Below, piece by piece: positions 957 through 40,860 of a stretch of 40,860 nt of DNA (the first letter of the stretch is position 1; the number at the start of each line of letters is the position of its first letter). The stretch is taken from positions 1 through 40,860 of IMG/VR virus record IMGVR_UViG_3300013094_000113; one strand, written 5' to 3'. The translations under genes were made by a program, and so were the position numbers. The notes beneath the pieces were generated by a model. That model was not told where the DNA came from, did no database searches, and saw nothing but the letters and a program-made list of their open reading frames with translations. Origin of the DNA: a virus.

Positions 957-978
957 AAATTATATTGGCAAGGTATGC

Positions 979-1007
979 GGGGAGAGAGAAATCTCTCCCC
1001 TTTTTTT
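979..1007 (+). terminator. Rho-independent terminator after the nrdA operon
   Basis: A perfect 9-bp stem GGGGAGAGA/TCTCTCCCC (979-987 with 992-1000) closes a GAAA tetraloop and is followed at once by seven Ts. It ends the nrdA and Bfd-like transcript and insulates the lipoprotein gene starting at 1022. Confidence 0.95.
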
Positions 1008-1009
1008 GT

Positions 1010-1017
1010 GTAAGTAA
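1010..1017 (+). promoter_or_regulatory. Late-promoter-like motif GTAAGTAA
   Basis: The octamer sits 4 nt before the ATG at 1022, directly downstream of the terminator. It matches the recurrent (G/C/A)TAA(A/G)TA(A/T) motif of this window, which resembles the T4 late promoter. Confidence 0.55.
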
Positions 1018-1021
1018 TTGT

Positions 1022-1978
1022 ATGAAAAAGTTTGCAATATTATCTCTTTTATTTTTAACTAGCTGTACCCTTGGATTAAAAACACCGGATGCTTTTAGTA
1101 ATAGTCCAACTACAGACATAGGTAAGAAAGCTGTAGTAGTAGTCAAAGCTGAAGACACTCAAAAGCAAGTTGATCAAATGGCTGAAGCTAATAAGAAGGT
1201 TGAAGCAGCACGCCAAGAAATGGAAATGAAATATAATGCAGCAAGAGAACAACTACAAAAGTCTTATGATGACTTAAAGAAAAAAGATGACGAAAACTTT
1301 GCAAAGATAGGAGAACTAAACTATGGTATCTATATGGTAACTCAGGAAAAGAAGAAACAAGATATGAATACCCTTGTTGCGCATTTACATGCTAAAGAAA
1401 TAATGAACCGTACAGATAAATTAACACCAGAGCAAAAAGCTGTTATTACAGCTGAAATTAATAAAGAAAAAGCTTTAACTATTGATCAACTTTATACCAA
1501 GTATAACGGCGCTGTAGAATTAGCTATTGTACAGAAACAAGCTTTAGATAATGCTCAAACAGTTATTGATCAACAGGAAAAAGAAAAAGCAGCTTTAAGA
1601 GAGGCAGAAAAGTTAACACTTAATAAACTACAAGCCGAAAGAAATGCTGAAATTGAGCAAATTAAAAAACAAGCAGCAGATCAATTAGCTCTAGCTAAAG
1701 CAGCTCAAAAAGCAGAGCTTATAGCTCTAATGGTTAAAGCTTTAATTGGAGTTGGTATATTATTCTTAGTGCTTGCTATATTGCTAAAGAACATTACAAT
1801 GGGACTTGGAGCTATTGCTTCATTAGGCTTAGCATATGTAGCTGCTACTGTAGAGATATGGGTAGTAGGAGCTTCTTTAGGTGGTATAATATTAATAGCT
1901 GTACTTATTGAAGTACTTAAACAGAATTCTAAGAAGAAGAAGGCAGCGGCGGTGGCTCCGGCTTCTCCAGTTCAATAA
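1022..1978 (+). CDS. Lipoprotein with coiled coil and C-terminal membrane segments (spanin-like topology)
   Basis: 318 residues from the ATG at 1022. That start is preferred because the open frame upstream crosses the terminator, and from 1022 the protein begins with a lipoprotein signal, MKKFAILSLLFLTSC, with lipobox LTSC (Cys15). Residues about 40-230 are Lys/Glu/Gln/Ala-rich and predicted coiled coil. Three hydrophobic segments follow at roughly 232-254, 257-276 and 279-299, then a short Lys/Ala tail. An N-terminal lipid plus a C-terminal membrane anchor joined by a long periplasmic helix is the layout of a unimolecular spanin, which disrupts the outer membrane at lysis. Known u-spanins are shorter and have a single C-terminal segment, so this is a hypothesis; an envelope or tail-associated protein is possible. 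Its 3' end overlaps the convergent gene by 50 nt. Confidence 0.75.
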   Translation: MKKFAILSLLFLTSCTLGLKTPDAFSNSPTTDIGKKAVVVVKAEDTQKQVDQMAEANKKVEAARQEMEMKYNAAREQLQKSYDDLKKKDDENFAKIGELNYGIYMVTQEKKKQDMNTLVAHLHAKEIMNRTDKLTPEQKAVITAEINKEKALTIDQLYTKYNGAVELAIVQKQALDNAQTVIDQQEKEKAALREAEKLTLNKLQAERNAEIEQIKKQAADQLALAKAAQKAELIALMVKALIGVGILFLVLAILLKNITMGLGAIASLGLAYVAATVEIWVVGASLGGIILIAVLIEVLKQNSKKKKAAAVAPASPVQ

Positions 1979-5586: not shown

Positions 5587-7409
5587 ACACAGCAACAGAC
5601 AATTCCCAATTAAACATTGCAAGTAATGAATATGTTGCTTTTGATGCCTCGTCTTTAAAAACGTTTATTAACAATCGTTTAACACAGAGCGGTGTTTTTA
5701 CTGATCAAAATTATGAAGGTTCGAATATCACTGCAGTTAACAATATAATTGCATACTCTTTTCATACATTACTTTACTATTTAAATCAAACTTCAACAGA
5801 ATCATTGTTTAGTGAAGCACAGCTTTACGAAAACATGAATAGAGTAGTAAAGTTATTAAACTACGCACCAGTTGGAGCTCAGACATCTACTTTATCATTT
5901 ACAGTATCAGCTGATAATACATTAGGTATTGGAACATATACAGTTCCGCGTTATACGTTTATTAGAGCTGGGGGTGCAACATTTTCATTTAATCAGGACG
6001 TTACTTTTACAAAAACATTAACAAGTGTACAATATATAACTGATATTAGCAATCAGTACCTATTATATCAAGGTTCGTATGTTGAGTATCCATTATATAC
6101 AGCTAGAGGAGAAGCAAATGAAGTTGTATTCTTAGTGCCAGGTAATACAGTTATTATTGATCACTTTAATATAGATGTATATGTAAAGAACTACTTTACA
6201 GGTAAATGGACACAATGGACAGCTACTGAATCTTTATATCTTGAAGATGCAACATCTCAAGCATATGAAATAAGACTTAATCAAAATAAAAACTATGAAA
6301 TTAAGTTCGGTGATAATATTAATGGCGCACAATTAAATGCTAACGATATAGTTGCTATCTATTATCTTCAATCGTTAGGTACATCCGGTCAAGTAGGGGC
6401 TGGAGTATTACAAGGCCAGTCAGCGGCATTATACACCACTTCTCAATTCACGTCTATATCTAACGATGTTATAAGTTCAAACTTAAACTTATTAACAGAT
6501 GTTAACATAATTAGTTTAGATTTTGCCAATAGTAACATTTCTACTTCATTTACAGATGTAGAAGCAGTTAGTAGTATACGTAATAATGCTCCAGCTTCTT
6601 TTAAATCTCAATATAGAGTAGTTACTTCTTCAGATTATAAATCGTTTATTACTTCTACATTTGCTAATATTGTAAACGACGTAGCGGTATTAAACAATAA
6701 CGATTATGTTAATGGTCACTTACAATATCTTTATAATATAGGTTTAACTAACCCGGGTTCTGATTATAGAGTATTATACAATCAAATGGCGTTTGCTGAT
6801 GCTTGTAATTTTAACAACGTATATGTTTATGTTCTACCTAAAGCTACTAAGATCATAACAAATAATTACATAAATTATTTAACGCCAGCTCAAAAACAGT
6901 TAATTATAACTTCATTACAGTCAAGACAAACTCTTACCTCTCAAGTTATAGTTATGGATCCAGTTTATAAAGCTGTAACTGTTGGTATAAGTGAAACTAA
7001 TGTAACAGTAAATGATATAGCTAATTCTAAATTAATAATTACTTTAGATCGTAATAACAAGACTCCTGCTTCAGTTATATTAAACAGTATACAATCTATA
7101 TTTGAGTCCTACTTTAATCCTTCTACTATTACATTAGGTTTTACTGTTAATACTTCAGATATTAACGGAGACATATTAGGTATTGGTGGTATTACAAGTA
7201 TTACTACAACAAATGGTACTGATACAGTTAACGGTATTTCATTTATAGTATATAACACTTCTTATCCAAACAACGACGTAACATCTACAACAAAAACATT
7301 CACGGTAGAAAGTTTTCAAACAGTTTATCTTGACAATATAACCGATATAATGTCCAGAGTAGTTATTCAAACACAAACTTCTCAAGATACTGCAATATTG
7401 AGCTTCTAA
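5583..7409 (+). CDS. Baseplate wedge protein, gp6 / baseplate J-like
   Basis: 608 residues, close to T4 gp6 (660). The N-terminus has the typical layout: a helix for a short chain-joining segment (FDASSLKTFINNRLTQSGVF), a sentence rich in SN/Y residues, then QLYENMNRVVKLLNYAPVGAQTSTLSFTV, where family members have ENxxxAxxLxGYxP. The middle is beta-rich (about 100-260), followed by the helix-containing gp6 core SFKSQYRVVTSSDYKSFITSTF and a C-terminal domain with DPVYKAVTVGISETNVTV. gp6 dimers form the ring that drives baseplate opening. The gene overlaps the gp25-like gene by 4 nt and is followed after 1 nt by the next structural gene. Confidence 0.85.
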   Translation: MNTATDNSQLNIASNEYVAFDASSLKTFINNRLTQSGVFTDQNYEGSNITAVNNIIAYSFHTLLYYLNQTSTESLFSEAQLYENMNRVVKLLNYAPVGAQTSTLSFTVSADNTLGIGTYTVPRYTFIRAGGATFSFNQDVTFTKTLTSVQYITDISNQYLLYQGSYVEYPLYTARGEANEVVFLVPGNTVIIDHFNIDVYVKNYFTGKWTQWTATESLYLEDATSQAYEIRLNQNKNYEIKFGDNINGAQLNANDIVAIYYLQSLGTSGQVGAGVLQGQSAALYTTSQFTSISNDVISSNLNLLTDVNIISLDFANSNISTSFTDVEAVSSIRNNAPASFKSQYRVVTSSDYKSFITSTFANIVNDVAVLNNNDYVNGHLQYLYNIGLTNPGSDYRVLYNQMAFADACNFNNVYVYVLPKATKIITNNYINYLTPAQKQLIITSLQSRQTLTSQVIVMDPVYKAVTVGISETNVTVNDIANSKLIITLDRNNKTPASVILNSIQSIFESYFNPSTITLGFTVNTSDINGDILGIGGITSITTTNGTDTVNGISFIVYNTSYPNNDVTSTTKTFTVESFQTVYLDNITDIMSRVVIQTQTSQDTAILSF

Positions 7410-10807: not shown

Positions 10808-12805
10808 ATGTCTATTATAAGAGTAAACGCTAATATGTTGACAGGGGTATCCGGTAGTGGGTATTCCGGTTATAGTGGTATATCAGGGTTAAACGGCTCA
10901 GCTTCGAGTTCAGGTTTTTCTGGTATTAGTGGTTATTCTGGTTATAGTGGTTCCGGTATATCAGGATGGTCCGGTTGGTCTGGAGCTTCTGGTTATTCTG
11001 GTATTAGTGGTTATTCAGGTATATCAGGAGCTGCAGCAGCTTCTGGTTTTAGTGGTTGGTCGGGTATTTCAGGTTGGTCTGGATGGTCTGGTATAAGTGG
11101 TTGGTCAGGTTGGTCAGGTATATCGGGTTGGTCCGGTATTAGTGGCTGGTCGGGCTTTAGTGGGTATTCAGGCATTTCTGGTTTTAGTGGTATAAGTGGT
11201 TACTCAGGTATATCAGGTTGGTCAGGTTACAGTGGTATTTCTGGTTGGTCTGGTTACTCTGGTATAAGCGGTTACCCCGGTATTTCAGGCTATAGTGGTT
11301 ATTCTGGTATTTCAGGTTACAGTGGTATTTCTGGTTACTCAAGTCATTCAGGATACTCCGGTATATCTGGGTATAGTGGTATTAGTGGTTATTCCGGTAT
11401 AAGCGGTTACTCAGGTATTTCAGGTTATTCAGGATACTCCGGTATATCTGGTTACAGTGGTATTAGTGGCTACTCCGGTTATAGTGGTATATCTGGGTAT
11501 AGTGGTATTAGTGGTTATTCCAGTTACTCTGGTATCTCAGGCTATAGTGGTATAAGTGGTTATAGTGGTTCAGGTATATCAGGTTATTCAGGGTACAGCG
11601 GTATTAGCGGCTATAGTGGATACAGCGGTACAAGTGGTTACTCAGGTACTCCTGCAGTTGGTTTAACATTATACCCGACATCTTCTGCTTCAGAATTTAG
11701 TGTTTATTATGGTTTGTTTAGTATTACCCCAGTTTCTGGACCATCTACTGTTTATCCTTATAGTTTAAGTGCTAACGAACAACTAGGTACGTTAGGTCAA
11801 GTTGTCACACCAATCGGTAGTCCAGATGAATATTTTATTAATCAAGGTACTTGGGTATTTAACTGTTATTATGCCCTTTCTGGTACTAATGTTAATGCTA
11901 CGTCAGCTGTAACATTAACTCATGCTATATACGACAGAACCTACCCTGGTGGTACAGAAACAATGCTGTTCTCTGCCACAGGCTCAGCATTAACTCCAAC
12001 ACCTTTTGGTACTCCTTTATTACAGGCTGTTTCGTATAATATTTCTTCCCCAATTGCTTTAGGCAGTACTACCGATAGATTAGTATATAGAGTGTTTGCG
12101 AGTACTGGTAGTAGTGCTCCTGCTACTGTTGGTTTTTATTTTCTAGGTACTCAAAATTACAGTAATATTATAACTGGTATATATCAAGGGGCGGTAGGTA
12201 CATCAGGTTACTCTGGTTATAGTGGTTATTCTGGGTATTCCGGTCTCAACGGTGCTTATGCGGCTTCTGGTATCTCTGGCTATTCTGGTACATCTGGTTA
12301 CTCTGGTAATAGTACATCAGGTTATTCTGGTACATCTGGTTATAGTGGTATAAGCGGGTACAGTGGTTATTCAGGTATTTCCGGTTACAGTGGTATCTCA
12401 GGTTATAGCGGATATATAGGTATATCAGGTTATAGCGGTATTTCAGGTTATTCTGGTATAAGTGGGTATTCTGGTATAAGTGGCTATAGTGGTATATCTG
12501 GTTGGTCCGGTTATAGTGGTATCTCAGGCTATAGCGGTATTAGCGGTTGGTCAGGTTATTCTGGTATAAATGGTACTATTGGTTCTAATGGTGCATCTGG
12601 TTATTCTGGTATTTCAGGTTGGTCAGGTATATCTGGTTGGTCTGGTTGGTCAGGCATAAGCGGTTGGTCAGGTTGGTCTGGTATATCAGGTTGGTCTGGA
12701 GCTAACGGATCAGCTGGAGCATCTGGTACATCTGGATTTTCTGGTTTTAGTGGTTCTAGTGCTATAGCCCCAAAATTTGTTGTATTATATTCTTTGTGTG
12801 GATGA
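10808..12805 (+). CDS. Collagen-like tail fibre protein (Gly-X-Ser repeats)
   Basis: 665 residues in four parts. Residues about 13-282 and 464-650 are uninterrupted Gly-X-Ser triplets, mostly the hexapeptide GYSGIS with GWS and GFS variants. Residues about 283-463 form a globular beta-rich domain, and the last 15 (SSAIAPKFVVLYSLCG) cap the chain. The period of three with Gly in every first position is that of a collagen triple helix, common in phage fibres. Unusually, proline and charged residues are almost absent and X is aromatic or Ile, so stability cannot come from imino acids; a polyglycine-II-like or other fold is possible. Neighbours are tail proteins and the spacing is 3 nt from the previous gene, so a trimeric fibre or whisker is likely. 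Confidence 0.85.
   Translation: MSIIRVNANMLTGVSGSGYSGYSGISGLNGSASSSGFSGISGYSGYSGSGISGWSGWSGASGYSGISGYSGISGAAAASGFSGWSGISGWSGWSGISGWSGWSGISGWSGISGWSGFSGYSGISGFSGISGYSGISGWSGYSGISGWSGYSGISGYPGISGYSGYSGISGYSGISGYSSHSGYSGISGYSGISGYSGISGYSGISGYSGYSGISGYSGISGYSGYSGISGYSGISGYSSYSGISGYSGISGYSGSGISGYSGYSGISGYSGYSGTSGYSGTPAVGLTLYPTSSASEFSVYYGLFSITPVSGPSTVYPYSLSANEQLGTLGQVVTPIGSPDEYFINQGTWVFNCYYALSGTNVNATSAVTLTHAIYDRTYPGGTETMLFSATGSALTPTPFGTPLLQAVSYNISSPIALGSTTDRLVYRVFASTGSSAPATVGFYFLGTQNYSNIITGIYQGAVGTSGYSGYSGYSGYSGLNGAYAASGISGYSGTSGYSGNSTSGYSGTSGYSGISGYSGYSGISGYSGISGYSGYIGISGYSGISGYSGISGYSGISGYSGISGWSGYSGISGYSGISGWSGYSGINGTIGSNGASGYSGISGWSGISGWSGWSGISGWSGWSGISGWSGANGSAGASGTSGFSGFSGSSAIAPKFVVLYSLCG
10841..11655 (+). 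repeat. Tandem 9/18-bp coding repeats, first collagen-like block
   Basis: About 270 codons of GGN-NNN-AGY/TCN triplets. Codons for the same residue vary (ggt/ggc/gga, tca/tct/agt), so the repeat is much better conserved in protein than in DNA. Confidence 0.9.
12198..12760 (+). repeat. Tandem 9/18-bp coding repeats, second collagen-like block
   Basis: About 185 codons of the same Gly-X-Ser pattern, resuming after the globular insert. It is broken by short non-canonical pieces such as GLNGAYAASG and GTIGSNGASG. Confidence 0.9.
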
Positions 12806-12837: not shown

Positions 12838-14343
12838 GCTACCAGCAATACAGTTGTAGATAGTTTTACCACACAGGATCAAATAAATTCCTATTTAAAT
12901 ACTTTATCTCAGAAGTATTTAGCTAATAATCAATATATTGTATCTGGTACCAATACTGGTTTTGTTACAGCTGGTGTTACAGCTTTTGCTCCTTATGCTA
13001 ATTTATCAAATAGATATTACCCTACTGTAGCTACATTACCTAATCAAAGTAATTTAATGTTAGCAGCAGAACTTGGTGGTTATTTTTTACCAGGTAATTT
13101 AGGTGCTTCTATTTATTTAACTAAAAATATAACTTATTCTTTAAATACCAGTCAAATACCAAATGGTATTGCTTATAATGTTATAGACCCAACTCGTTTC
13201 AATAAAGGTCGTGGTTTAACTCAAAACGATCAGAGCAATATTGTAACACATTATATTGATAATAACTGGATGAAAGCAATTAATGTTTCAGATCAGTTTG
13301 ACGGTAATATAATTAATACAGATACGTATCAAAAGTTTATACCATATCAGTCTGCTTACGAAACAACTAAAACAGATAGTAACGGTGTTGTAAATGCTCG
13401 TTACGATTTTGAATTTTGGACCGGTCCAGAAAAGCAAACTTGGAATGAAACAAACTCAAGTAATACGCTTGATAGAGAAAACTATTTTAATTTACAAAAT
13501 AGTATTAATAATTTAGTTTATACTGCTGGTAAAGAGTTATACTCTTGGAATACTGACATATTTGGTACCCAATACGCTTTTTATAAACCTATAATAACCC
13601 CGCCATCTTTTTATAACTCTTTATATGCAAGTGGTACGTTATGGGTAAAAACACCGGATGGTACTATAAACCAAGCTCCTTCTGCACTTAATACCGTTTT
13701 TAATGCATATCAAAACAATAGCGCAATATATAGACAACTCAGCAGCAACAATATATTAAATTTTGAAGTATTTTATAATACATTAATTATACAATTATCA
13801 GGTTACGTTTTATATGAAGGTATAACTTTAGATTATAATACATACACTATATCAAACACTACGAAAACGTATTTAGCATTAAATTACGGGCTAACTTTAA
13901 GTAATGCTCTTTTAACAAATTTCTTTACAAATCAAATAGGTACCCCTGGTGTATCAGCTCAAACATATTATGGTGGTAATTGGTACGATACAAGTAATAA
14001 TACTATTACTATTTGTACGTTATTGTCATCTACTTTATCAGGTTCAGCAAACTCTATAGTAAGCACTTCTGGTTTATCGAGTTTAATAGTGCCAGTGCTG
14101 TATAGTATTAATTTAAATGACCCTAACAGTAGAACTAGAATATTCCCAACAAATAGTACTAACCCATATAATTTCTTAGAATACATATATCCAATTAATA
14201 ACTCTGCATCAAATGAGGTATCTTTTATGGAGGATCCGGTATTTTCTTATAATAAAGATACTAATTTGTATATAATTAACTTTTTAGCGTATAATTATCA
14301 TAGTCAACAGACTAATTTAATATCATATAAAATCTCCTCTTAA
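12835..14343 (+). CDS. Unidentified tail/baseplate structural protein
   Basis: 502 residues, rich in Asn, Thr, Tyr and Ser, with no signal peptide or membrane segment. No domain is recognised. Composition and the long beta-prone stretches ([34 protein letters not shown]) are like its neighbours. The stop TAA overlaps the next start by one base (TAATG), so the two are made together. The position between the collagen-like fibre and the Thr/Pro-rich adhesin suggests a connector or a fibre-attachment protein; this is inference from context only. Confidence 0.75.
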
Positions 14344-16094
14344 TGTCCCTTTCTGCATACAGTTTTCCTTCTATAGATAACGGCTCCACAATAGCTACAC
14401 CGGTTACATTAAACGGGTATGCACCTTATACTATTGTATTTCAGCCAAGCGCTATTAATTTTGGAAACAATGTAATTAACAACATTACATATGTATTGTC
14501 AGGTAACAATTATCAGTACTATTATAATACTACTAGAAACTTTACATATACAACTCTTAGTAATGCAGTTACAGGTAATATAGACAGTAGAAGTAATTTT
14601 GCTTACACGTTTTATAACATCTTATCCGGTCAAAGTGTAACATATGCGTTAATTTCAGCTGTATTATTTCCAAGTCTTCAAACAGTTTCTTATACTTTAA
14701 GAATTGAAACAGACACTCCATGGTTAGCTAATAACCCGCTTTTAGGTTCAAACGCACCAGCACAGTTTGGTGAAGTGCATTTAATTAAGAGTAGATCTTG
14801 GGGTACTAGTAACGAACAGCTTATTGTTGCGGAAGGTCTTAATAATACAACTGGCCAAATACTATTATTTAACACATCAGACGTTACTTCAGCTTCTCCG
14901 ATTCAGCCTAAAGCTCCTAACCCAACATCTACACCTACCCCAACAGTTACACCGAGTGTTACACCTACTCCAACCTTTACACCTACAACTACTCCAACTC
15001 GTACAGTAACACCTACACCGACTTATACTCCTACATATACGCCTACTTACACGCCGACAGCTACTCCTACATACACCCCGACTTACACTCCAACAGTAAC
15101 GCCTACCTACACGTTAACACCTACACCAACGTTAACACCTACTCCGACCTATACGCCTACATATACACCTACTTATACTCCAACATCTACACCAACATAT
15201 ACACCTACTTACACCCCTACCCACACTCCAACAGCTACTCTAACACCTACCCCGACATATACGCCTACGCCGTCTAAAACTGCAACTACTACCACCACAA
15301 CAACAACTACTACAACAACTACTACAACCACTCCTGCTCCAACATATACAGTTCAGCTTATAAACGGTACTGGTGGTAGTAGTACAACTCTCAATGGTTC
15401 TAGTGCTTCTGTACAGTACCTACCTGCAGGTACATATAGCTTAGTAGCTGTAGCTGCTACCGATTACACATTTGCAAACTGGGCTTTAATTTCTGGTAGT
15501 GCTTATATAGCTAACACTACAAATCCAAACACTACCATTACAATTAGTCAGAATGTGTACGTTGGTTCAACATTTAGCTACACTCCACCTACAACAACCA
15601 CTACTACCACCACAACAACAACACCTCCACCTACCACAACAACAACTACTACAACAACCACAACAACTACCACAACGACCACGACTACCACAACTACTCC
15701 AGCTCCAGTACCTCCTGCTGCTCCTTCAACGAGTATCTCTTACGTATACAACGGTTATCCAAACGGTTATGCGTTCTTTGGAGTGCAGATTTCTTCTACA
15801 GCTTATACAGGTACAAACTGGCCATCTAGTCAACAAGGTCTGTCTAACGAACAAATGTTCTATAGTTACTATGGTACACCTGGTACATACAATAGCTTCT
15901 TCAGTAAGGACTTCTTGCCAGGTTATACATTTAGCGACACAACATATTGCGGTGTATTGTGCGGATTATATAACAATGCTAATGTCAACTTTGCTGCTCA
16001 AGCTACAGATTGGAACGGTTCAACCACAATAACATATGATGGTTGGTATGTAACTAATAGTAGTACATATGTACCTGGATCTTGTGGTTGCTAA
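14343..16094 (+). CDS. Thr/Pro-rich tail adhesin with an InlB-like module
   Basis: 583 residues with modules in order: a beta-rich N-terminal domain (about 1-190); a TPTYTPT-type Thr-Pro repeat (about 195-311); a poly-Thr run (about 315-331); a compact domain (about 332-417) resembling the divergent InlB B-repeat ([11 protein letters not shown]...[11 protein letters not shown]...[13 protein letters not shown]); a second poly-Thr/Pro linker (about 417-453); and a C-terminal domain ending SCGC. The Thr-Pro stretches are mucin-like and expected to be extended and easily O-glycosylated. Such modular proteins usually present a receptor-binding head on a stiff stalk. The poly-Thr/InlB-like/poly-Thr cassette recurs in the protein starting at 22141. 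A glycosyltransferase gene lies 1.8 kb downstream. Confidence 0.8.
14928..15275 (+). repeat. Thr-Pro coding repeat (mucin-like)
   Basis: Degenerate 6- and 12-bp repeats encoding TPTYTP and TPTATP units. Synonymous Thr and Pro codons are mixed, which limits slippage. Confidence 0.85.
15287..15336 (+). repeat. Poly-threonine (ACN) repeat 1
   Basis: A run of ACN codons giving poly-Thr, followed by PAP and the InlB-like domain. Confidence 0.85.
15590..15702 (+). repeat. Poly-threonine (ACN) repeat 2
   Basis: Two ACN runs separated by a few Pro codons after the InlB-like domain, again ending in a PAP motif. All four Thr codons are used. Confidence 0.85.
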
Positions 16095-22140: not shown

Positions 22141-25100
22141 GTGGCATCCTATTCACAATATAAAGAATCTCTAGCATATCACAATCCTACAAGTGGAGAT
22201 TGGGTTTATCTTACCAATATATGGACCCAATTTACAAATGAAATTGCTTCTGCTGGTTTAACATCTCAGACAACTTCAGATGCTAATAATGTAGAAACTT
22301 ATTTAGTTAATTCTGCTAATAGTGGTTCTTCTACAGCATATTCTCACGGTACTGCCAATGGTTATGTAAACGCCTATAACGTAACAGCAGATCAAGGTGT
22401 GCCACCAGCACCTTGGTACGGGGAAGGATATACACAAACTTGGGATATAAGCGCACAAATAAATGCAAATGATCCTGATATAGTCTCTGTAGTATTTCAG
22501 CCTGGTACTGTACCAAGTTTAATTACTGTTGGTGATACATATCAACCACAAGCAAACGGTTATTCTAGTCAAGGTATATTAAACGCTGTTAATATACAAA
22601 AGAACGGTACTGAATATGCAGACGTAGGTGGTTTGCCTAGCGGTACAGTATCTTATACTAATACTGGTAATCCTTCATCTGAATCTTCAGTAGGTACGGT
22701 TACATGGTCAGCAAATGCAATAGACGTAAACGGTTTATTAGCCTCTACATCTGCTACTACAAATGTGGTTGGGGTGCCTTATGGTGTTATAAATTCTTTA
22801 ACAAGTAACATAGTACCAGGTGGTACTGTTTACTGTTATGGTACCGCTAACTATCAAGATCAAAACAATAACGCTCAGCCGTTTAATGATGTTGGTGTAG
22901 TGATTTTAAAGGATGGTAATCCTTATACCACCGTTGGCCCGAATAAGCATACATTTGCACCTAATGGATGGGATTTTGCTCTTACTGTTAGCGATGTAGG
23001 TAATTATACAGTATTAGTATACGCTACAAACAGTGCTAATAAATCAGTACAAGTAGCAAGTGGCGGGTTTAGTGTAACAGCTCCTACCACTACAACCACC
23101 ACTACCACTACAACCACCACTACAACCACCACTACCACTCCTGCGCCTACTGTAACAGTAACTGCACAGGTTAGTCCAAATTACGGTGGTACAGTTTCAA
23201 TTAACGGTAGCGGTTATTCATCTTCGGTTACTGTTACAGTAACTCAAGGTAGTACAGTTAGTTTAGCATTCAACGCTAACGGTGGATTTTACTTTGGTGG
23301 GTGGGAATCAAATTCGTTTATACCTGGTGGTTCAGGACCAACGTTAGTTACATTACCTATAACCAGTAGTACGACATTTACAGCAGATGCAGTAGCTGTA
23401 ACAACGTCAACAACGACAACGACTACTACTACAACAACCACTACCACCACAACAACAACGACGCCACCTCCTCCGTCGCCGACGCCTACTGGTACTCCTA
23501 CCCCAACCCCTACTCCTAGTCAGTTTGCGCCACCTACTCCTACCCCTACTAGTTCCCCTACTCCTACTTTAACACCTACTCCGACGTATACACCGACAGT
23601 TACACCATCGACGTCAATACCTCCAACTCCTACTCCTTCACCTTCAACCGGAGTATTAGCGGTTTATACCCCTTGGACAGTAGCAACAACAAACTCTCCG
23701 GTTTGGCTACAAACGGTTTATCCGATAAGTAAAGGATTTACAAAATATGGTATCAATTGGGGTGACGGTAACGGACAGATAAGTTATTTTGCTGGTGCAA
23801 ATACTAACAACTTCTTACTTTACAATTACACTACCCCTGCATCTGGGCAATCATATTATACGGCTTACATACAAGGTCTAGCCGGTGCTGGTGGTTTACC
23901 TCGTACATTATCTAACAGATTCTACATTAAATCTGCTTTACCCACTTACAATTTAGCAAATTATTACGATCCTGTCAATACAACACCTGTATTACCATAC
24001 GATCTTAATAATGTATTGGTAGGTTCTAATGAATGGGCAGTTAGTGATGTAATAAACGCTTCGTTTACGAAATTATACGAAAACTTTAATTACCTACAAA
24101 TAATTTCTTCAGTACTTGAATTAAACAATTCAATACCTCTAATTGAATGGTGCGGTCAATGGGATGCGGTCAGTACATCTGAACCTGCTTCATCATATGC
24201 TTGGAAAACACAAATTCCTGGTATTAACATTAACAATTCATTTAATTTATATAGCAGTGGTAGTGCTCAAGGTATAGCTAGCGGTATAATTAAAGATATC
24301 AAATCATACAGGTTTAGTACGACCACTGCACCTGATTATTATCTATACGTAGCGTTTACTTCTAACGGTACCACCCCAGATCACATACAAGTACGTACAA
24401 ACGATTACTACAACACGTTATTATTAAGCGCTACAAGCTTAGGTACTAATATACCTAACTTTAATAGTATTAGTGCAATAGATGTTATTGGACAGCAGTT
24501 ATATCTATTAGATACCAATACAGTTTACCGTTTAGGTTTGAATCCAAGTCAAAATGGGTTTGCAATTTATAATAAGGTAGGCGGTATTTCAGGTACTCGT
24601 TTACAAGAAAATGCGTTTAATTATCCTACTCAAGTAAGAACAGATAGTAATTACGTTTATGTAGCAGATAGTTACAACAGTTGTGTTAAGGTTTATAATG
24701 CTGCGCTTTCTTGGATCAACACATTATATGTAAATGCATTAAGTGCATACAGTATTAATAACATTGAGATCAATAGAAACAGTAATAGTATCTATTTGTT
24801 AGGCGAAACATTTGCTCCTGTAGCTCCAGTATTAACAAACGTTAGCACATTAACAACTAATGGTTTAAATACAGTTTATAGTATTTCATGGGTACATGAC
24901 GGTTTAAGATTAAACATACCTTCAACAAGTAATTCTTTATCCGCTTTCAGTCTTTATGGTTTATTATCAGGTGGACAGAGTTACGTTCAACTAACATCAG
25001 CAGTTACACTTTCTTCCACTCCTTCTTTACCATATTACAATCAAGTACAGACAGTAACGTATGTAGCTGCTTCTGGAGCAGTTTACTCTAACTTTGCAGT

Positions 25101-25947
25101 ACAAGCTTTGGGTGTAAACGGTTACAATTCACCTTTATCACACTCAATACCTACACCAACAGGGTATTACTTTACTACACCTTATCAAGTATTTGAATTA
25201 GATAGGTTTGCAGGTACGTTATTAAACACGTTCCCGTTACCAAACAATTTTGAATATGTTACACCAAGTAACAATATAAAGTCTAATGATAATATTGTTG
25301 CAATGGTTAGCGATCCAACAGGTGTATTCTTGTACTTTGTAACAAGCAATTATGTATACAAGTATTTAACTAATGGTAAAGCATTAAATCGCTTAACATT
25401 CCCAAGTTCTTACAGCTTAGGGCAATATGAATCTTTTAGAGCTGCATTTATTGATGATAGGTTAAACTTTATTTTAGCTACAGATAAGAGAGTGTTTAAG
25501 TTTGTTGATATACCTAACACTCTATCACTTTACAATACACTTACCGTCAACACATTGTTTAATCCGCTATCTTCAATATTAATAGATAGTAATGAACTTA
25601 TACAAGACTGGGTTTACAATAAGAGCATTTTACGTTTACAACAAAATCATCAAATACTTTATACTTCTATAAACAACAAGTATAATATTGCTTTGGATTC
25701 TTCAGGTAACTTAATTAACCAAACAAACGGTACATCCAGCTTTACTACAGGGCCTTTAAGTTCAACAGATATTAATAGTAGTATTGCTCTTACACATGAC
25801 TATTTTATACACAGTAATGAGCTTGTTACATCCAGTGTAGTTAATAGAGCTTTAACAGACCTGTATAATGTACAACAAAAGATACTTAACCTGGTAACCC
25901 CAAGAATATCCAGACAATTACCTACAAATACTAATAATAGTATTTAA
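22141..25947 (+). CDS. Giant multidomain tail adhesin with Ig-like, InlB-like and propeller-like regions
   Basis: 1268 residues from a GTG start. Modules: an N-terminal helical part (1-60); beta-rich Ig-like region (about 150-312, ending NYTVLVYATNSANKSVQVASGGFSV); poly-Thr (314-332); InlB-like domain (about 333-420, VTAQVSPNYGGTVSING...FYFGGWESN); poly-Thr (421-441); a Pro/Thr linker (442-500); then a beta domain and an NHL-like propeller region (YPTQVRTDSNYVYVADSYNSCVKVYN, about 825-855). A fibronectin-like segment near 900-1000 (VSTLTTNGLNTVYSISWVHDG) and a C-terminal helix (SVVNRALTDLYNVQQKIL) close the chain. It probably exposes several binding heads on the virion. The InlB-like cassette is shared with the protein at 14343. 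The stop overlaps the convergent small gene by 4 nt. Confidence 0.85.
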   Translation: MASYSQYKESLAYHNPTSGDWVYLTNIWTQFTNEIASAGLTSQTTSDANNVETYLVNSANSGSSTAYSHGTANGYVNAYNVTADQGVPPAPWYGEGYTQTWDISAQINANDPDIVSVVFQPGTVPSLITVGDTYQPQANGYSSQGILNAVNIQKNGTEYADVGGLPSGTVSYTNTGNPSSESSVGTVTWSANAIDVNGLLASTSATTNVVGVPYGVINSLTSNIVPGGTVYCYGTANYQDQNNNAQPFNDVGVVILKDGNPYTTVGPNKHTFAPNGWDFALTVSDVGNYTVLVYATNSANKSVQVASGGFSVTAPTTTTTTTTTTTTTTTTTTPAPTVTVTAQVSPNYGGTVSINGSGYSSSVTVTVTQGSTVSLAFNANGGFYFGGWESNSFIPGGSGPTLVTLPITSSTTFTADAVAVTTSTTTTTTTTTTTTTTTTTTPPPPSPTPTGTPTPTPTPSQFAPPTPTPTSSPTPTLTPTPTYTPTVTPSTSIPPTPTPSPSTGVLAVYTPWTVATTNSPVWLQTVYPISKGFTKYGINWGDGNGQISYFAGANTNNFLLYNYTTPASGQSYYTAYIQGLAGAGGLPRTLSNRFYIKSALPTYNLANYYDPVNTTPVLPYDLNNVLVGSNEWAVSDVINASFTKLYENFNYLQIISSVLELNNSIPLIEWCGQWDAVSTSEPASSYAWKTQIPGININNSFNLYSSGSAQGIASGIIKDIKSYRFSTTTAPDYYLYVAFTSNGTTPDHIQVRTNDYYNTLLLSATSLGTNIPNFNSISAIDVIGQQLYLLDTNTVYRLGLNPSQNGFAIYNKVGGISGTRLQENAFNYPTQVRTDSNYVYVADSYNSCVKVYNAALSWINTLYVNALSAYSINNIEINRNSNSIYLLGETFAPVAPVLTNVSTLTTNGLNTVYSISWVHDGLRLNIPSTSNSLSAFSLYGLLSGGQSYVQLTSAVTLSSTPSLPYYNQVQTVTYVAASGAVYSNFAVQALGVNGYNSPLSHSIPTPTGYYFTTPYQVFELDRFAGTLLNTFPLPNNFEYVTPSNNIKSNDNIVAMVSDPTGVFLYFVTSNYVYKYLTNGKALNRLTFPSSYSLGQYESFRAAFIDDRLNFILATDKRVFKFVDIPNTLSLYNTLTVNTLFNPLSSILIDSNELIQDWVYNKSILRLQQNHQILYTSINNKYNIALDSSGNLINQTNGTSSFTTGPLSSTDINSSIALTHDYFIHSNELVTSSVVNRALTDLYNVQQKILNLVTPRISRQLPTNTNNSI
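23083..23137 (+). repeat. Poly-threonine (ACN) repeat, first linker of the 22141 protein
   Basis: ACC/ACT/ACA codons encode about 18 threonines, followed by PAP and the InlB-like module. Confidence 0.85.
23401..23464 (+). repeat. Poly-threonine (ACN) repeat, second linker of the 22141 protein
   Basis: About 20 Thr codons closing the InlB-like module and leading into a Pro/Thr linker. Confidence 0.85.
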
Positions 25948-29513: not shown

Positions 29514-30575
29514 ATGAAAAAACTATATACTTTATTACTACTAAACACACTTTTAGTTAAGTATGTTTTTGCGCAAGGATGTGTTGTAGCGCATGGTGCT
29601 GGTATGCCTGGCTGTACACTTGAAAACAGTAATCAATACTTATACGAATCCTCTATTTCGTATCGCTGGTTTGAATCTAATAGAGATTATGTTGGTACAA
29701 ATTATAACCCTCAACGTAACGTTATTGGAGATCAAATAATTAATCACTCTCACTTTGCTGATATTGGTTTAGTATATAATGGTATTACAAATACAAGTAT
29801 CGAATTCACCATACCGTATGTGTATCATACCCGCTCTCAAGCAGTAAAAAACTCAAACGGAGTCGTTATTAACCGTTATACAAACACCTCATCTGGTATT
29901 GCTGATATAATTATTGCAGTTAAACGTTCATTGCTTACATCTAACACTAAAGGTAATATTCAATTAGGTTTTGGAGTTTCTTTACCTACTGGTAAAGATA
30001 ATACACAAGGTACTTTTGAATCGTATAATAGTACAACTAAAACTATTGTATACAGCACCCACGCTAACGATCAATCTGTTCAAACAGGTAGCGGGGGTTA
30101 TGGTATAATAGTAAGCTTCTACGGGTATCGTAAATTAGGTTTTTTTACTGGCTATGTAGATGGTACATACACATTAACCCCTCAAAGTATCAATGGTGTA
30201 CAAACTGCTCGTTCTAATATATATGAGCAAGTAATGTCAATACCAGACTCGTATCAAAGTAGAGTAGGAATTGAATATACTACTCGTAATTTTACATTTA
30301 GTTTAGGAGAACGTATCGAAGGGGTGCCGGTGTATGATTTAATTGGTTATAGTAGTGGTTTTAGACGCCCTGGGTATTCATTAGATTTAGATCCAGGCAT
30401 TAGATATAATAATAAACACTGGTCTACAAGTCTATATATACCAATTACACAAAGAGCTAATCGTCTACAAAGTCGTGCTGATAAATTAACTACTGCTACG
30501 ACAGGTAAATACACTCAAGGAGATGCTTTTTTTGCACCATATGAAGTTATTGGAAGTGTGAGCTACAAGTTTTAA
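29514..30575 (+). CDS. Outer-membrane beta-barrel protein
   Basis: 353 residues with an export signal MKKLYTLLLLNTLLVKYVFA (cleavage predicted after Ala20), then a chain of alternating hydrophobic/polar strands (SSISYRWFESN, FADIGLVYNG, SIEFTIPYVYHTR, IQLGFGVSLPTGK, YGIIVSFYGYRKLGFFTGYVDGTYTL, FTFSLGERIEGVPVYDL). It ends in SVSYKF, with the terminal Phe needed by the BAM assembly machinery. The GVSLPTGKD segment resembles the phenol-degradation-pathway transporter family of barrels. Phage-encoded barrels can alter receptors or block superinfection, as the lambdoid Lc porin does. The signal peptide has a Lys at position 16, which is unusual. A tRNA-like RNA starts at the base after the stop codon. 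Confidence 0.85.
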   Translation: MKKLYTLLLLNTLLVKYVFAQGCVVAHGAGMPGCTLENSNQYLYESSISYRWFESNRDYVGTNYNPQRNVIGDQIINHSHFADIGLVYNGITNTSIEFTIPYVYHTRSQAVKNSNGVVINRYTNTSSGIADIIIAVKRSLLTSNTKGNIQLGFGVSLPTGKDNTQGTFESYNSTTKTIVYSTHANDQSVQTGSGGYGIIVSFYGYRKLGFFTGYVDGTYTLTPQSINGVQTARSNIYEQVMSIPDSYQSRVGIEYTTRNFTFSLGERIEGVPVYDLIGYSSGFRRPGYSLDLDPGIRYNNKHWSTSLYIPITQRANRLQSRADKLTTATTGKYTQGDAFFAPYEVIGSVSYKF

Positions 30576-31700: not shown

Positions 31701-32309
31701 ATGCTACAAAGCCCGTTAGATGATTTTATTAGAATATATCCTAATATACTTAGTAAAGAGGTGTGTACTGATATTATCAACTTTTTTGATTCAGTAGCTG
31801 ATAAAGAAGAATACTCAAAACACGTTGTTTCTGGTAGTGCACAGTTTAGTAATATATCTTTGAGAAAAGACAAAAGTATTTTTTTAAATCAAGATATTTT
31901 TCAAAAAAAAGAATTATGTGTTTTTATATTTGAAAAAATAGGAGAATGCTTAAAAGAATATACAAAAGAATTCGTTACTTTACAAAAAGAACAACTTAGT
32001 GGTAGGTATATGATAAAGGTGCAACGTTCTCAACCTGGAGATGGTTTTAATGTTTGGCATCACGAAAATGGCACTTCTCCAGACCCTGATACAGTTAGAA
32101 GAGAATTAGCTTGGATGTTATATTTAAATGACATGCCTGAAGGAGAAGCTGAAACTGAATTTTTATATCAACGTAAAAGAATTAACCCTGTTGGTGGATC
32201 CCTAGTACTATGGCCAGCTGGCTTTACACACACCCATAGAGGCAACACAGTTTTTACCAAAACAAAATATATCCTCACTGGTTGGGTATATAAAGAACAA
32301 ATAAGATAA
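31701..32309 (+). CDS. 2-oxoglutarate/Fe(II)-dependent oxygenase
   Basis: 202 residues of the prolyl-hydroxylase-like cupin type frequent in cyanophages. Seen: MIKVQRSQPGDGFNVWHHEN with likely metal ligands His120 and Glu122 (HxE), the strand ELAWMLYLNDMPEGEAETEF, then LVLWPAGFTHTHRGNTVF with the second histidine (177 or 179) and Arg180 near the cosubstrate site. It oxidises an unknown substrate, using 2-oxoglutarate and oxygen. The adjacent gene at 32314 encodes a paralogue with the same ELAWMLYLND, AETEF and WPAGFTH.HRGNTVF segments, so the pair arose by tandem duplication. A start-proximal dyad lies upstream. Confidence 0.88.
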   Translation: MLQSPLDDFIRIYPNILSKEVCTDIINFFDSVADKEEYSKHVVSGSAQFSNISLRKDKSIFLNQDIFQKKELCVFIFEKIGECLKEYTKEFVTLQKEQLSGRYMIKVQRSQPGDGFNVWHHENGTSPDPDTVRRELAWMLYLNDMPEGEAETEFLYQRKRINPVGGSLVLWPAGFTHTHRGNTVFTKTKYILTGWVYKEQIR

Positions 32310-32313
32310 TAAT

Positions 32314-32916
32314 ATGTATAACGAAAGTTTTATTAGAACTTATTCAAATGCTGCAAGTAAAGAACTTTGTAAAAAGTCAATTGACACTTTTGAAAAAATT
32401 ATTGAAAAATCAGAACTATATAAAGATTTTGTAGTTAATAAGCGAGCTTCTAATAGAAATGATATATCTATAAATCTATTAAACCCAGCTTTCAATGAAA
32501 ATATTCTACGTCAGGAATTATTAGAAATAATTAACAATTGTTTTTTACAATATCAAACTGATCCTGGACTTACGAACTATAGCGGGTTTGTTTATGAAAA
32601 CGTACATTGTAAAATACAACGCACATTACCTTCTGGTGGGTTTCATGCATTTCATTGCGAAACCAAAGTGTCTAATGAACAGTCAGCATCTTATAGAGAA
32701 TTAGCTTGGATGCTTTATTTAAATGATATGCCAAACGGTGAAGCTGAAACCGAATTTTATTATCAACGTACAAGATTAAAGCCAGTAGAAGGTACAGTAG
32801 TTATATGGCCAGCAGGCTTTACACATTTACATAGAGGTAATACAGTATTCACACAACCAAAATATATTGCAACTGGTTGGATATATTGTAAGCCAATTAA
32901 TATGGCCTCTCCTTAA
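32314..32916 (+). CDS. 2-oxoglutarate/Fe(II)-dependent oxygenase, tandem paralogue
   Basis: 200 residues. It shares the core of its upstream neighbour: KIQRTLPSGGFHAFHCET with ligands His114 and Glu116 (HxE), RELAWMLYLNDMPNGEAETEFYYQ, and WPAGFTHLHRGNTVF with His171/173. The N-terminal 100 residues have diverged more, suggesting that the two act on different substrates or form a heterodimer. The gap is 4 nt, so they are co-transcribed. No sign of decay is seen: both metal motifs are intact. Confidence 0.88.
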   Translation: MYNESFIRTYSNAASKELCKKSIDTFEKIIEKSELYKDFVVNKRASNRNDISINLLNPAFNENILRQELLEIINNCFLQYQTDPGLTNYSGFVYENVHCKIQRTLPSGGFHAFHCETKVSNEQSASYRELAWMLYLNDMPNGEAETEFYYQRTRLKPVEGTVVIWPAGFTHLHRGNTVFTQPKYIATGWIYCKPINMASP

Positions 32917-34966: not shown

Positions 34967-35458
34967 TTAACGATGCCAGTGATGGCGGTACATATCTTCA
35001 CGGAATGCATATCCGTAACGATGTTGGTACCAGCCTAAGAATACTCTATATTCATAATAGGTTGTTACCCATTGTACACCGTTCCATTCTTGTACATAAA
35101 CATATTGAGGGTGACCCCAACGATCTAATGGACCCCAAACATACTGTACTGTGACAGGAACTGGAGGGGGGGGTGGAGCCTGTACAACTACTACTGGAGC
35201 AGGAGCAGGGGAGGGTGGTGGGGGAGCTTGAACTACGATCCCTTTAGGTTGATCATTAGCATGATCAGCTGCGTTACCAATCATTCCACCAATTAAAGCG
35301 CCAGCAACAGCGCCCCCGACAACGTTGTGGTGATATTGATTGCCAATTACACCGCCAACAACAGCTCCGGCTGCAACACCTTCTGCTGTGTGTTCTTGAG
35401 CTCGAGCTGGAATAGCTAAAGCTAATGCAATTAAGGTTAATAAAAGTTTGTTTTTCAT
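34967..35458 (-). CDS. Exported glycine-zipper protein
   Basis: 163 residues with a clear Sec signal (MKNKLLLTLIALALAIPARA|Q, cleavage after Ala20), then two glycine-zipper helices (GVAAGAVVGGVIGNQY and VVGGAVAGALIGGMIGNAAD) of the kind that inserts in or spans membranes. A Pro-rich linker (QAPPPPSPAPAP) leads to a C-terminal Tyr/Trp-rich domain (YVWGPLDRWGHPQYVY...WYQHRYGYAFREDMYRHHW). It is probably located in the periplasm or outer membrane. Similar host proteins are surface or stress proteins; a phage copy may alter the envelope. It is the last of three leftward genes for exported proteins, after a terminator. A perfect TATAAATA lies 12 nt upstream. Confidence 0.8.
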   Translation of the reverse strand: MKNKLLLTLIALALAIPARAQEHTAEGVAAGAVVGGVIGNQYHHNVVGGAVAGALIGGMIGNAADHANDQPKGIVVQAPPPPSPAPAPVVVVQAPPPPPVPVTVQYVWGPLDRWGHPQYVYVQEWNGVQWVTTYYEYRVFLGWYQHRYGYAFREDMYRHHWHR

Positions 35459-35470
35459 ATTATACTATAA

Positions 35471-35478
35471 TATTTATA
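35471..35478 (-). promoter_or_regulatory. Perfect T4-type late promoter TATAAATA (minus strand)
   Basis: TATAAATA on the minus strand, 12 nt before the ATG at 35458. It sits just downstream of a terminator, so it restarts transcription for the glycine-zipper gene. Confidence 0.6.
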
Positions 35479-35487
35479 TTGTAAAAT

Positions 35488-35518
35488 AAAAAAAGCTCCA
35501 CGTAAGTAGAGCTTTTTT
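35488..35518 (-). terminator. Bidirectional-looking terminator, leftward use
   Basis: An A-run plus GCTC (35488-35498) pairs with GAGC plus a T-run (35509-35518). On the minus strand it ends the two upstream leftward genes just before the glycine-zipper promoter. Confidence 0.75.
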
Positions 35519-35526
35519 AATACTAT

Positions 35527-35793
35527 TTATTTTGTAGTAGGAGGAGCATCCTGATGCGCTTTACCGGCTTTCTCTTTATGTTTCTTATGTTTAGCAACCT
35601 TTGGCTTTGCATTACGTTTATTACAATTACATTGAACAGCTTTTTGCATAGCAGCTAAACGGTGTTGCATCATTGCCGGGGTTGGTCTAGCAGCGATTGG
35701 ACGAGAAGTCAATCCTTGGTGATGACCTAACGCATAGGCTAATATAAGAGCAGCTGCTGCACCTGCTATTTTTAAGTACTTATTATAGTCCAT
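35527..35793 (-). CDS. Small membrane-anchored basic protein
   Basis: 88 residues: a short start, a hydrophobic helix (YLKIAGAAAALILAYALGHHQG, about 6-27), then a basic, Lys/His/Pro-rich tail with VQCNCNKR (a CxC pair). It is probably anchored in the inner membrane with the tail outside or as a signal-anchor. Function not recognised. It lies between the K10-containing protein and a terminator, in the three-gene leftward cluster of exported proteins. Confidence 0.65.
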   Translation of the reverse strand: MDYNKYLKIAGAAAALILAYALGHHQGLTSRPIAARPTPAMMQHRLAAMQKAVQCNCNKRNAKPKVAKHKKHKEKAGKAHQDAPPTTK

Positions 35794-35798
35794 ATGTA

Positions 35799-36041
35799 TT
35801 ATTTTGTTGAGGGTTGTTGATTGTTAGCAGGTGGTTGTTGATCATCTGCTTTTTTCTTCTTCTTTTTCTTCTTCTTTTTTGGTGCATCAGGTTGAGCTGT
35901 GCCATCCGAAGGGGCTGCTGGGGCGGCCGTTACAGTTGTAGCAGGAGCTGGAGCTGGTTGAGCTGCTTGCGCAAACCCAACATTTACTACTTCGAGCGCT
36001 ATAGCTGCTGCAAGTACTAATACTAGTTGTTTGTACTGCAT
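35799..36041 (-). CDS. Exported Ala/Pro-rich protein with a poly-lysine run
   Basis: 80 residues: a likely signal peptide (MQYKQLVLVLAAAIALEVVNVGFAQA, cleavage near residue 26), an Ala/Pro/Thr-rich linker, then ten lysines in a row and a Gln/Asn/Pro-rich tail. Disordered, strongly basic and exported, it could bind peptidoglycan-associated polymers, LPS or extruded DNA. No known family is recognised. GTAAGTAT lies 6 nt before the ATG on the minus strand. Confidence 0.65.
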   Translation of the reverse strand: MQYKQLVLVLAAAIALEVVNVGFAQAAQPAPAPATTVTAAPAAPSDGTAQPDAPKKKKKKKKKKADDQQPPANNQQPSTK

Positions 36042-39187: not shown

Positions 39188-40860
39188 CTATTTACTAGTA
39201 GCTCTATAAACTCCGTCCCAATCAACTGGTAAGTTAGCATTTTTAAGTTCGTTAATTCTTACTATCATATTTTCATAGTAATGTGCTAACTCAGGGTTAT
39301 ATGATATTAATGAAGTAGCTAATTGTATAGCATTGTCCCATCTTTGCATTCTATAATCAGATAAGAACCCGTCATGTATTCTACCTACATGAGGTTTTTC
39401 CATAGTAATAAAATTATTTTGTACTACAGTATAAATCTTTACACCTTCTTTTTTACCTTTAACAGCAATACAATCTAGTTCAAAGCACTTGTATTTGTCT
39501 TTTACGTATTCGTAAGTCCTAGGTCCAATTACAATTTTAACACCGTAAGGTTTTGATTGTCCTTCTAACCTCGAGGCCAGATTAACTCCATCGCCCAAGC
39601 AAGTGTAATCGAAACGCTGAGTACTGCCCATATTACCAACAACAACAGTATCTGTGTTGATTCCAAGACCCATTCCAAACGCTGGTACCCCTTCTTGAGC
39701 AATTTCTTTATTAAACTCATCTAAATTATTTAACATTATCATTGCTGTTTTCAATGCATTTAAAGCATGCTCTTTATCGTCTAATGGTGCATTCCAAAAA
39801 GCCATTTGAGCGTCTCCAATATACTTGTCTAATGTACCGTTATTATCTAATATAGCTTTAGTCATAGCAGTCATGTACCGGTTCATTATTTTTGTTAAAC
39901 CTTGTACATCTTTACCGTAGTGTTCTGATATAGTAGTAAAACCTCTAACATCAGTAAACATAATAGACAACTCTCTACTATCCCCTCCTAACTTTAATAG
40001 ATCTGGATTCTCTTGTAATTTCTCAACCATTGCAGGTGATAGGTAAGTACCAAATTGTTTCTTTATTTGCTGCTTTAACTTAAACTCCATTACAAATCTA
40101 AAGAACAAAGCACCTACCCAAGGTAATAATACCGCTAAAGTAGGCCAAGTATAATCCGTAAGATATCCGTAATTAACAAATAAACGAAATCCAATAAAAT
40201 AAGGTACACATAAGAATAGTGTAACTAATACACCATTTAGGATATACCCCAAATAACAAGCAGCAACAATAAGAATAATAGCAAGTATAATACCGCCTGT
40301 AAGCTCATATAGATCGAATGTTGAGGGTCTTTGTAGTCTATTATTACTTATAAGCATTTCAAGTGTTTGCGCTGATACTTCATAACCTTGTGATATTCCT
40401 ATAGGTGTAGCTACTGTATTATTAATACCTTCTGCAGTAGGTGCAATGAATACTACTTTACCTTTTAACTTAGACCAGTCTTTATCTACCATTGATACAC
40501 TATCAAACGAGTACTTAAAGTTAATCCACACTCTACCATTGGCATCAGTATTAATAGGTGGTATGCCTTTTACTCTAACAGCCTGTATACCAGCTTCATT
40601 TACTTTAGCTTGAAAGGATTCCTCTCCACCAAACACTCTTAGTACCTCTACGGGTAATGCTGGATACGTTTCTTTGTTAACCTGCACTGCTAATGGTAAA
40701 CGTCTTGTTACACCATCTACTTCTGGTGCAGTTAATAGCATACCAACACCTGCTGCACTTTGACCAAACTGTTTTAATGGTCCAATAGCTGCAGGATAAC
40801 TATATAACCAATCGTTAATACCTGTACCTATTGTAGCTATACCACGCGGTACTGGTTGAC
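39188..40860 (-). CDS. CHASE2-domain adenylate cyclase (class III), 5' end outside the window
   Basis: At least 556 residues; the frame stays open to the right edge, so the N-terminus is missing. Numbering from the internal Met at 40741: a CHASE2-type sensor (QFGQSAAGVG just upstream, then EVDGVTRRLPLAVQ and YPALPVEVLR); about three membrane helices (148-168, 171-190, 198-217); and a class III cyclase domain from about 255. The catalytic set is intact: metal-binding Asp264 (FTDVRGFT) and Asp310 (KYIGDAQMAFW), adenine-selecting Lys306 and Thr380 (DYTCLGDGVN), transition-state Asn387 and Arg391 (NLASR). It should make cAMP in the cytoplasm under control of a periplasmic sensor. Codon use matches its neighbours. 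A phage origin is inferred from the gene context; a host gene at a junction cannot be excluded. Confidence 0.9.
   Translation of the reverse strand, partial: QPVPRGIATIGTGINDWLYSYPAAIGPLKQFGQSAAGVGMLLTAPEVDGVTRRLPLAVQVNKETYPALPVEVLRVFGGEESFQAKVNEAGIQAVRVKGIPPINTDANGRVWINFKYSFDSVSMVDKDWSKLKGKVVFIAPTAEGINNTVATPIGISQGYEVSAQTLEMLISNNRLQRPSTFDLYELTGGIILAIILIVAACYLGYILNGVLVTLFLCVPYFIGFRLFVNYGYLTDYTWPTLAVLLPWVGALFFRFVMEFKLKQQIKKQFGTYLSPAMVEKLQENPDLLKLGGDSRELSIMFTDVRGFTTISEHYGKDVQGLTKIMNRYMTAMTKAILDNNGTLDKYIGDAQMAFWNAPLDDKEHALNALKTAMIMLNNLDEFNKEIAQEGVPAFGMGLGINTDTVVVGNMGSTQRFDYTCLGDGVNLASRLEGQSKPYGVKIVIGPRTYEYVKDKYKCFELDCIAVKGKKEGVKIYTVVQNNFITMEKPHVGRIHDGFLSDYRMQRWDNAIQLATSLISYNPELAHYYENMIVRINELKNANLPVDWDGVYRATSK

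Follow-up and report, generated by a model that had tools for sequence, protein, structure and literature searches.

A CHASE2-type adenylate cyclase gene of a T4-like phage and its predicted role at the end of a phage curli module

Results

A cyclase gene at the end of a viral contig

The stretch of viral DNA analysed here (40,860 bases; the window) ends in a gene whose product is predicted, from its domains and active-site residues, to be a membrane-bound CHASE2 class III cyclase that makes cAMP from ATP. We put the probability at about one in two that this is the last gene of a T4-like phage curli module, that a periplasmic state reported by a FecR-domain protein gates the cyclase and that the cAMP is read by a phage or a host receptor. 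Coordinates of the gene, its domains and related features are collected in Table 1.

Table 1. Positions of the cyclase gene, its parts and associated phage genes (positions without a locus name refer to the window)
Feature	Location	Strand	Remarks
CHASE2 class III adenylate cyclase gene (predicted)	39188..40858	-	556 codons present; 5' end cut by contig end
Stop codon of cyclase gene	39188-39190	-	
CHASE2 domain, residues 34-194	40277..40759	-	Pfam match, profile 102-253 of 257
Predicted transmembrane region linking CHASE2 to the cyclase domain, roughly residues 189-260	40079..40294	-	placed by alignment to L004 hydropathy
Class III cyclase catalytic domain, residues 296-478	39425..39973	-	holds D303, K345, D349, T419, N426, R430, K467
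C-terminal extension, residues 479-556	39191..39424	-	common to most phage copies; missing from HTVC008M (L083:11614-13449)
Convergent neighbour ORF, 142 aa	38758..39186	+	no Pfam match; L003 homologue in corresponding place, 5616-6044 (-)
Phage cNMP-binding gene	L004:5325-5966	-	PF00027, hydrophobic C-terminal tail
Phage cNMP-binding gene	L006:3480-4142	-	PF00027, hydrophobic C-terminal tail
Phage cNMP-binding gene	L030:5603-6259	-	cNMP-binding domain and hydrophobic C-terminal tail
Further members of phage cNMP-binding family	L087-L105		
Proteins of about 94 aa upstream of csgF	L039:5821-6105, L070:5836-6120, L082:6895-7173, L083:6542-6823	+	

A previous sequence-only reading had described this ORF as a membrane CHASE2/class III adenylate cyclase. 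The ORF is real, and its matches to CHASE2 (PF05226, E 3e-20) and Guanylate_cyc (PF00211, E 1e-19) both lie above the cut-off, as they do in full-length relatives; the earlier reading gave no strand, and the gene lies on the minus strand with its 5' end open at the contig end. The CHASE2 match starts at profile position 102, and thus the N-terminal part of the domain is missing. The whole of the visible protein (residues 1-556) aligns with positions 134-681 of the 681 in phrog_35576 (E 2e-179), a family annotated in PHROG as 'unknown function'. Because this alignment starts at position 134 and the nearest full-length relative, that of L003, has 685 aa, about 129 N-terminal residues lie off the contig. 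Hydrophobic segments are found on both sides of CHASE2 in full-length relatives (one of which, L004, served as the hydropathy reference for the membrane region of the window protein) and, with the Pfam domains, they support the membrane placement.

The catalytic residues named in the earlier reading are all present: the metal-binding aspartates D303 and D349, the purine pair K345/T419 and the transition-state pair N426/R430, to which K467, the conserved lysine of AVKG, can be added. Among 64 phage homologues both aspartates, the lysine and the arginine are invariant, and the threonine and asparagine are kept in 62 and 63 copies, respectively. Among solved structures the closest are class III adenylate cyclase domains from bacteria, including CyaB. 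Given that dN/dS is 0.07-0.15 between the window gene and relatives of 92-79% identity, the gene is not a chance reading frame and has been selected for function.

Individual relatives have features of their own. The cyclase of Methylophilales phage Melnitz (L082:11602-13653) has Asp at the position of the purine threonine, and Ser replaces the transition-state asparagine. On a 297-kb viral contig an 801-bp ORF with matches to DUF723 and T5orf172 (GIY-YIG-like) interrupts the gene (L194:5431-8298) behind roughly residue 584, and the last 100 cyclase residues resume beyond it; an Rfam search at the split found no intron. In L005, an 82% relative, the cyclase gene is divergent from one for a subtilase-family protease (Peptidase_S8; 184-1560, minus strand) whose N-terminus is leader-like.

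The cyclase is a phage gene

The window is the whole of an IMG/VR virus record, classed as linear and probably a fragment, and it holds T4-like genes for a clamp loader (phrog_168), baseplate wedge proteins, ribonucleotide reductase and dUTPase. Relatives of the cyclase are encoded on at least 599 viral contigs, and the gene is found inside phage contigs of 109-147 kb. The L002 and L003 cyclases are 92% identical to that of the window, those of L004 and L006 79%, and in L003 the cyclase is adjoined by homologues of the window's neighbouring genes. The neighbouring ORF is convergent with the cyclase gene and one base away, the spacing first noted. In a FastTree phylogeny of 66 phage and 80 bacterial cyclases all phage copies, that of the window included, group in a single clade (support 0.992) separate from the bacterial ones; the bacterial set is the best 80 matches and the root is arbitrary, so the tree shows separation and not the donor. 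The position of the cyclase at the contig end, on the strand opposite to most of its neighbours, might be taken to indicate host chromosomal DNA or an assembly chimera, a reading whose chance we regard as negligible in the face of the virus record, the viral homologues, their separate clade, the long phage contigs and the shared neighbourhood in L003. Host contamination at the contig edge is accordingly ruled out, and the cyclase of the window is a real phage gene. The suggestion that it is phage-borne has thus been borne out, and an outcome in which no other phage contig carried a homologue is excluded.

Two matches (H7 and H8) to a cyclase of Acinetobacter 'phage MD-2021a' were set aside, as that contig has bacterial genes (mfd and an isc/hsc cluster). 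An exact-sequence scan for contigs extending the window rightward found no overlap, and a tRNA scan of the window found none.

Other genes of the window deserve mention. The tail gene region encodes a 665-aa protein made up mostly of SGYSG/SGWSG repeats (10808-12805, plus strand), and in two large proteins (14343-16094 and 22141-25947, both plus) other domains are separated by long runs of poly-Thr and TPTPT. A 353-aa protein (29514-30575, plus) has a signal-peptide-like start and the look of an outer-membrane barrel. Two related 200-aa proteins are encoded in tandem at 31701-32916 (plus), the second matching 2OG-Fe(II) oxygenase (phrog_61). At 34967-36041, where the surrounding genes are on the plus strand and G+C is higher (about 43%), there are three successive short minus-strand genes with leader-like N-termini; their products are glycine/alanine-rich and Lys-rich, with a poly-Lys tail.

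Relatives place the cyclase at the end of a curli module

The window contig ends before any csgF, csgG, curlin or fecR gene would appear, and the cyclase alone is visible. Among viral loci retrieved with the window's cyclase, together with the named phages, csgF, csgG and fecR lie upstream of the cyclase on the same strand in 50 of the 50 that have at least 4 kb of upstream sequence (E-values of the locus searches apply to the candidate stretches only). The fecR and cyclase genes overlap by 4 bp in 54 loci. Melnitz and Pelagibacter phage HTVC008M share the order csgF, csgG, curlin repeat, fecR, second curlin-type gene and cyclase, with the cyclase last. Closer to the window, the module is complete in L004 and L006, where fecR and cyclase stand 0.4 and 2.2 kb apart, respectively; the L003 contig starts inside fecR, of which it retains the final 50 codons, and its cyclase follows 1.9 kb downstream. 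From the module in L004, L006 and all 50 loci and the fecR end in L003, we infer that the window's cyclase belongs to a phage curli module, though the window stops short of it, and that the whole module would be present in this genome. The tight coupling of fecR to the cyclase may have been lost in the window's close kin, where other genes (0.4-2.2 kb) separate the two.

Three further features of these regions were observed. A GIY-YIG gene lies between fecR and the cyclase in L003 (1559-2065, plus strand) and overlaps the cyclase start. In the large curli phages L194-L197, tRNA genes are densely clustered in the interval that separates the cyclase from the cNMP-binding gene. Proteins of about 94 aa (Table 1) with one hydrophobic segment, no Pfam match and a holin-like look are encoded immediately upstream of csgF in many curli phages, including Melnitz and HTVC008M.

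The sequence-only reading knew of no characterised phage example of such a cyclase, but phage examples are on record. The gene is annotated in HTVC008M (AGE60353.1) and Melnitz (QZI94833.1), whose products are 41% identical to that of the window, and a curli-FecR-adenylate cyclase module was reported in 2022 in pelagiphage curli operons (PMC9599517); a curli cluster has also been reported in pelagimyophages (PMC7029224). The text of PMC9599517 mentions neither CHASE nor CRP. Our literature search found no biochemical study of these phage cyclases, the papers that combine phage, adenylate cyclase and CHASE2 not being about phages, and no earlier description of a phage cNMP-binding protein with csgG. 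The cyclase and the curli module are therefore already on record; what is added here is the reading of FecR and CHASE2 as a pair, and the cNMP-binding protein of the window's clade.

FecR and CHASE2 cyclases are paired in bacteria

There is precedent in bacteria for a FecR-domain gene beside a CHASE2 cyclase. The 80 nearest bacterial CHASE2 cyclases (30-40% identity) are mostly from Alphaproteobacteria. A FecR-domain ORF occurs in the retrieved flanks of 32 of them, within 500 bp in 21, and is absent from the retrieved flank of the other 48; csgF and csgG were found in the flanks of none of the 80. In 16 of these bacterial genomes there are 68 FecR domains in about 96 Mb, a density that predicts about 0.8 for the 1.19 Mb of flank, and FecR beside the cyclases is thus about 40-fold above expectation in a sample that leans to Bradyrhizobium and in which the 16 genomes are not random. 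An independent study of Campylobacterota found CHASE2 cyclases clustered with a phosphodiesterase, a TPR protein and an outer-membrane protein that carries a FecR domain (PMC9239204).

The phage FecR protein has a hydrophobic leader or membrane helix at residues 2-22 and the FecR-fold domain directly after it, the cytoplasmic anti-sigma domain before the membrane helix being absent. A structure search matched FecR-fold periplasmic domains, with a likeness to that of PupR; a FecR profile run against PDB sequences gave no match. FecR and the CHASE2 cyclase are a pre-existing bacterial pair, which phages probably took over as a receptor pair. Because the pairing already exists in bacteria, the phage FecR protein is better read as the periplasmic partner of the cyclase than as an iron regulator.

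A cNMP-binding protein in the window's wider clade

A PF00027 search of 13 phage records gave matches only in L004 and L006, the closest long relatives of the window; the gene is missing from the other 11, Melnitz and HTVC008M included, and was not seen in the window's 40.9 kb. It is divergent from csgF, 211-224 bp off, and lies 4-6 kb from the cyclase in L004 and L006. In all it was found on 19 viral contigs and adjoins csgF in six genomes; in the contigs of L101, L102 and L105 it and a CHASE2 cyclase are about 15 kb apart, several other contigs break off before the csgF/cyclase region, and L089 and L095 have no curli module within 8-10 kb on either side of it.

The phosphate-binding cassette is intact (GEGALVSGAPRNAT), with G85, E86 and R95 invariant in 14 sequences, and dN/dS is 0.08-0.17. 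The cNMP-binding domain is modelled with high confidence (pLDDT about 90), and its structural matches, domains of the PKG, CRP and MloK1 types, confirm the binding-domain fold. The C-terminal tail is hydrophobic and helical, with a low-confidence model and one clear hydrophobic segment only. In an alignment search of 142 alphaproteobacterial genomes all matches fell within residues 7-158, leaving the tail unmatched, and the family has no match in PHROG. PF00027 is the sole domain found and no helix-turn-helix was detected; a CRP model covers residues 30-145 only, far below the cut-off. We considered and rejected the reading of the L004 and L006 matches as a phage CRP, the protein having a hydrophobic helical C-terminus in place of a helix-turn-helix. 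It is predicted to be a membrane-linked cyclic-nucleotide receptor.

Discussion

The likeliest scenario is that the cyclase serves a module made up of csgF, csgG, a curlin-repeat protein, a FecR-domain protein and the CHASE2 adenylate cyclase. The cyclase would sit in the inner membrane of the infected cell, where its periplasmic CHASE2 domain would restrain the cytoplasmic class III domain. Such restraint is supported by a functional precedent in a related protein, CyaD1 of S. meliloti, which makes cAMP constitutively when it lacks CHASE2 (PMC5498481). The gene pairing suggests that the FecR-domain protein reports a periplasmic state, most likely whether the phage curli pore or fibre is being loaded or assembled, and so releases the cyclase, which on the strength of its active-site residues would then convert ATP to cAMP. 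In the window's wider clade, gene neighbourhood points to the phage cNMP-binding protein with its membrane-seeking tail as the probable reader of the cAMP; in phages that lack this gene a host receptor would read it. Nucleotide product, signal, FecR role and output are all inferred here. An extension of this model, which we hold only tentatively and on the doubtful side, is that the window's phage group has its own second-messenger circuit, consisting of FecR partner, CHASE2 cyclase and cNMP-binding membrane effector and tied to phage curli secretion.

The cyclase might instead act on the host directly, its cAMP switching CRP-type regulons (metabolism, envelope) for the phage's benefit while its position beside the curli genes reflects shared timing only. 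Host catabolite control by the cyclase is possible, and most cyclase phages are without a cNMP-binding gene of their own, so that output there needs host parts. We nevertheless consider direct host action unlikely as the main account, since the constant company of fecR and csgG in all 50 loci and the bacterial FecR pairing speak for a specific partner, and in some relatives a dedicated cNMP-binding gene adjoins csgF. A role in lysis timing, in which the cyclase would report on the envelope and the nucleotide gate a membrane protein acting with the CsgG pore, draws on the lysis role proposed for CsgG of Melnitz (PMC9004378). The small hydrophobic proteins upstream of csgF fit this idea, as does the placing of the cNMP-binding tail protein in the neighbouring divergent position in the window's clade; it is made improbable by the small proteins having no holin family match and by the low confidence of the tail model with its single clear hydrophobic segment.

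We see very little prospect for a Pycsar-like defence or superinfection exclusion, in which a cyclic nucleotide made upon arrival of a competing phage would lead the cNMP-binding membrane protein to kill or block the cell. In its favor are matches of PADLOC PycC models to the cyclase domain (E 4e-26) and of the cNMP domain to the binding portion of PycTIR models, together with the hydrophobic tail of the putative effector. The PycC matches, however, extend no further than the generic class III domain, the Lys/Thr purine pair is conserved, the effector is missing from most carriers and CHASE2 senses the periplasm. The Pycsar-type link offered in the sequence-only reading is likewise not upheld by a purine-type active site, a receptor architecture built on CHASE2 and the absence of a TIR domain. 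We continue to favor the FecR-gated cyclase of a phage curli module.

Many aquatic viruses carry phage curli operons. Once FecR and the cyclase are viewed as a receptor pair, what were 'auxiliary genes near curli' become a signalling circuit open to testing, of which the predicted cyclic-nucleotide receptor beside csgF in some phages would be the second part. If the complete phage circuit exists, a phage could monitor the envelope of the cell it infects and answer through cAMP without host parts. This is a concrete motive for following cAMP through infection of the cultured pairs HTVC008M/HTCC1062 and Melnitz/H5P1, and raises the wider question of whether phages have second-messenger switches of their own.

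The closest known system is the pelagiphage T8SS (curli) module, with which the window's relatives share the operon order and the window itself the same cyclase family over its full length (phrog_35576). They differ in that the window shows the cyclase alone, that fecR and cyclase are separated in its close kin and that these kin have a cNMP-binding gene beside csgF that we did not find in the description in PMC9599517. Bacterial CHASE2 cyclases of the S. meliloti CyaD1 type have the same arrangement of CHASE2, membrane helices and class III cyclase with an adjoining FecR-domain gene, whereas their loci are without csgF and csgG and, at 30-40% identity, they fall in a separate clade. Pycsar (PycC with PycTIR or PycTM) is alike in its class III cyclase and, for some relatives, in a cNMP-binding protein with a hydrophobic segment; unlike Pycsar, the phage cyclase has CHASE2 architecture, a conserved purine pair and a curli-operon setting, with no TIR and an effector that is not cyclase-adjacent. 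The phage FecR protein, finally, shares a FecR-fold domain with the FecI-FecR-FecA iron-citrate system and differs from it in leading from its leader or membrane helix straight into that domain, without the cytoplasmic anti-sigma part.
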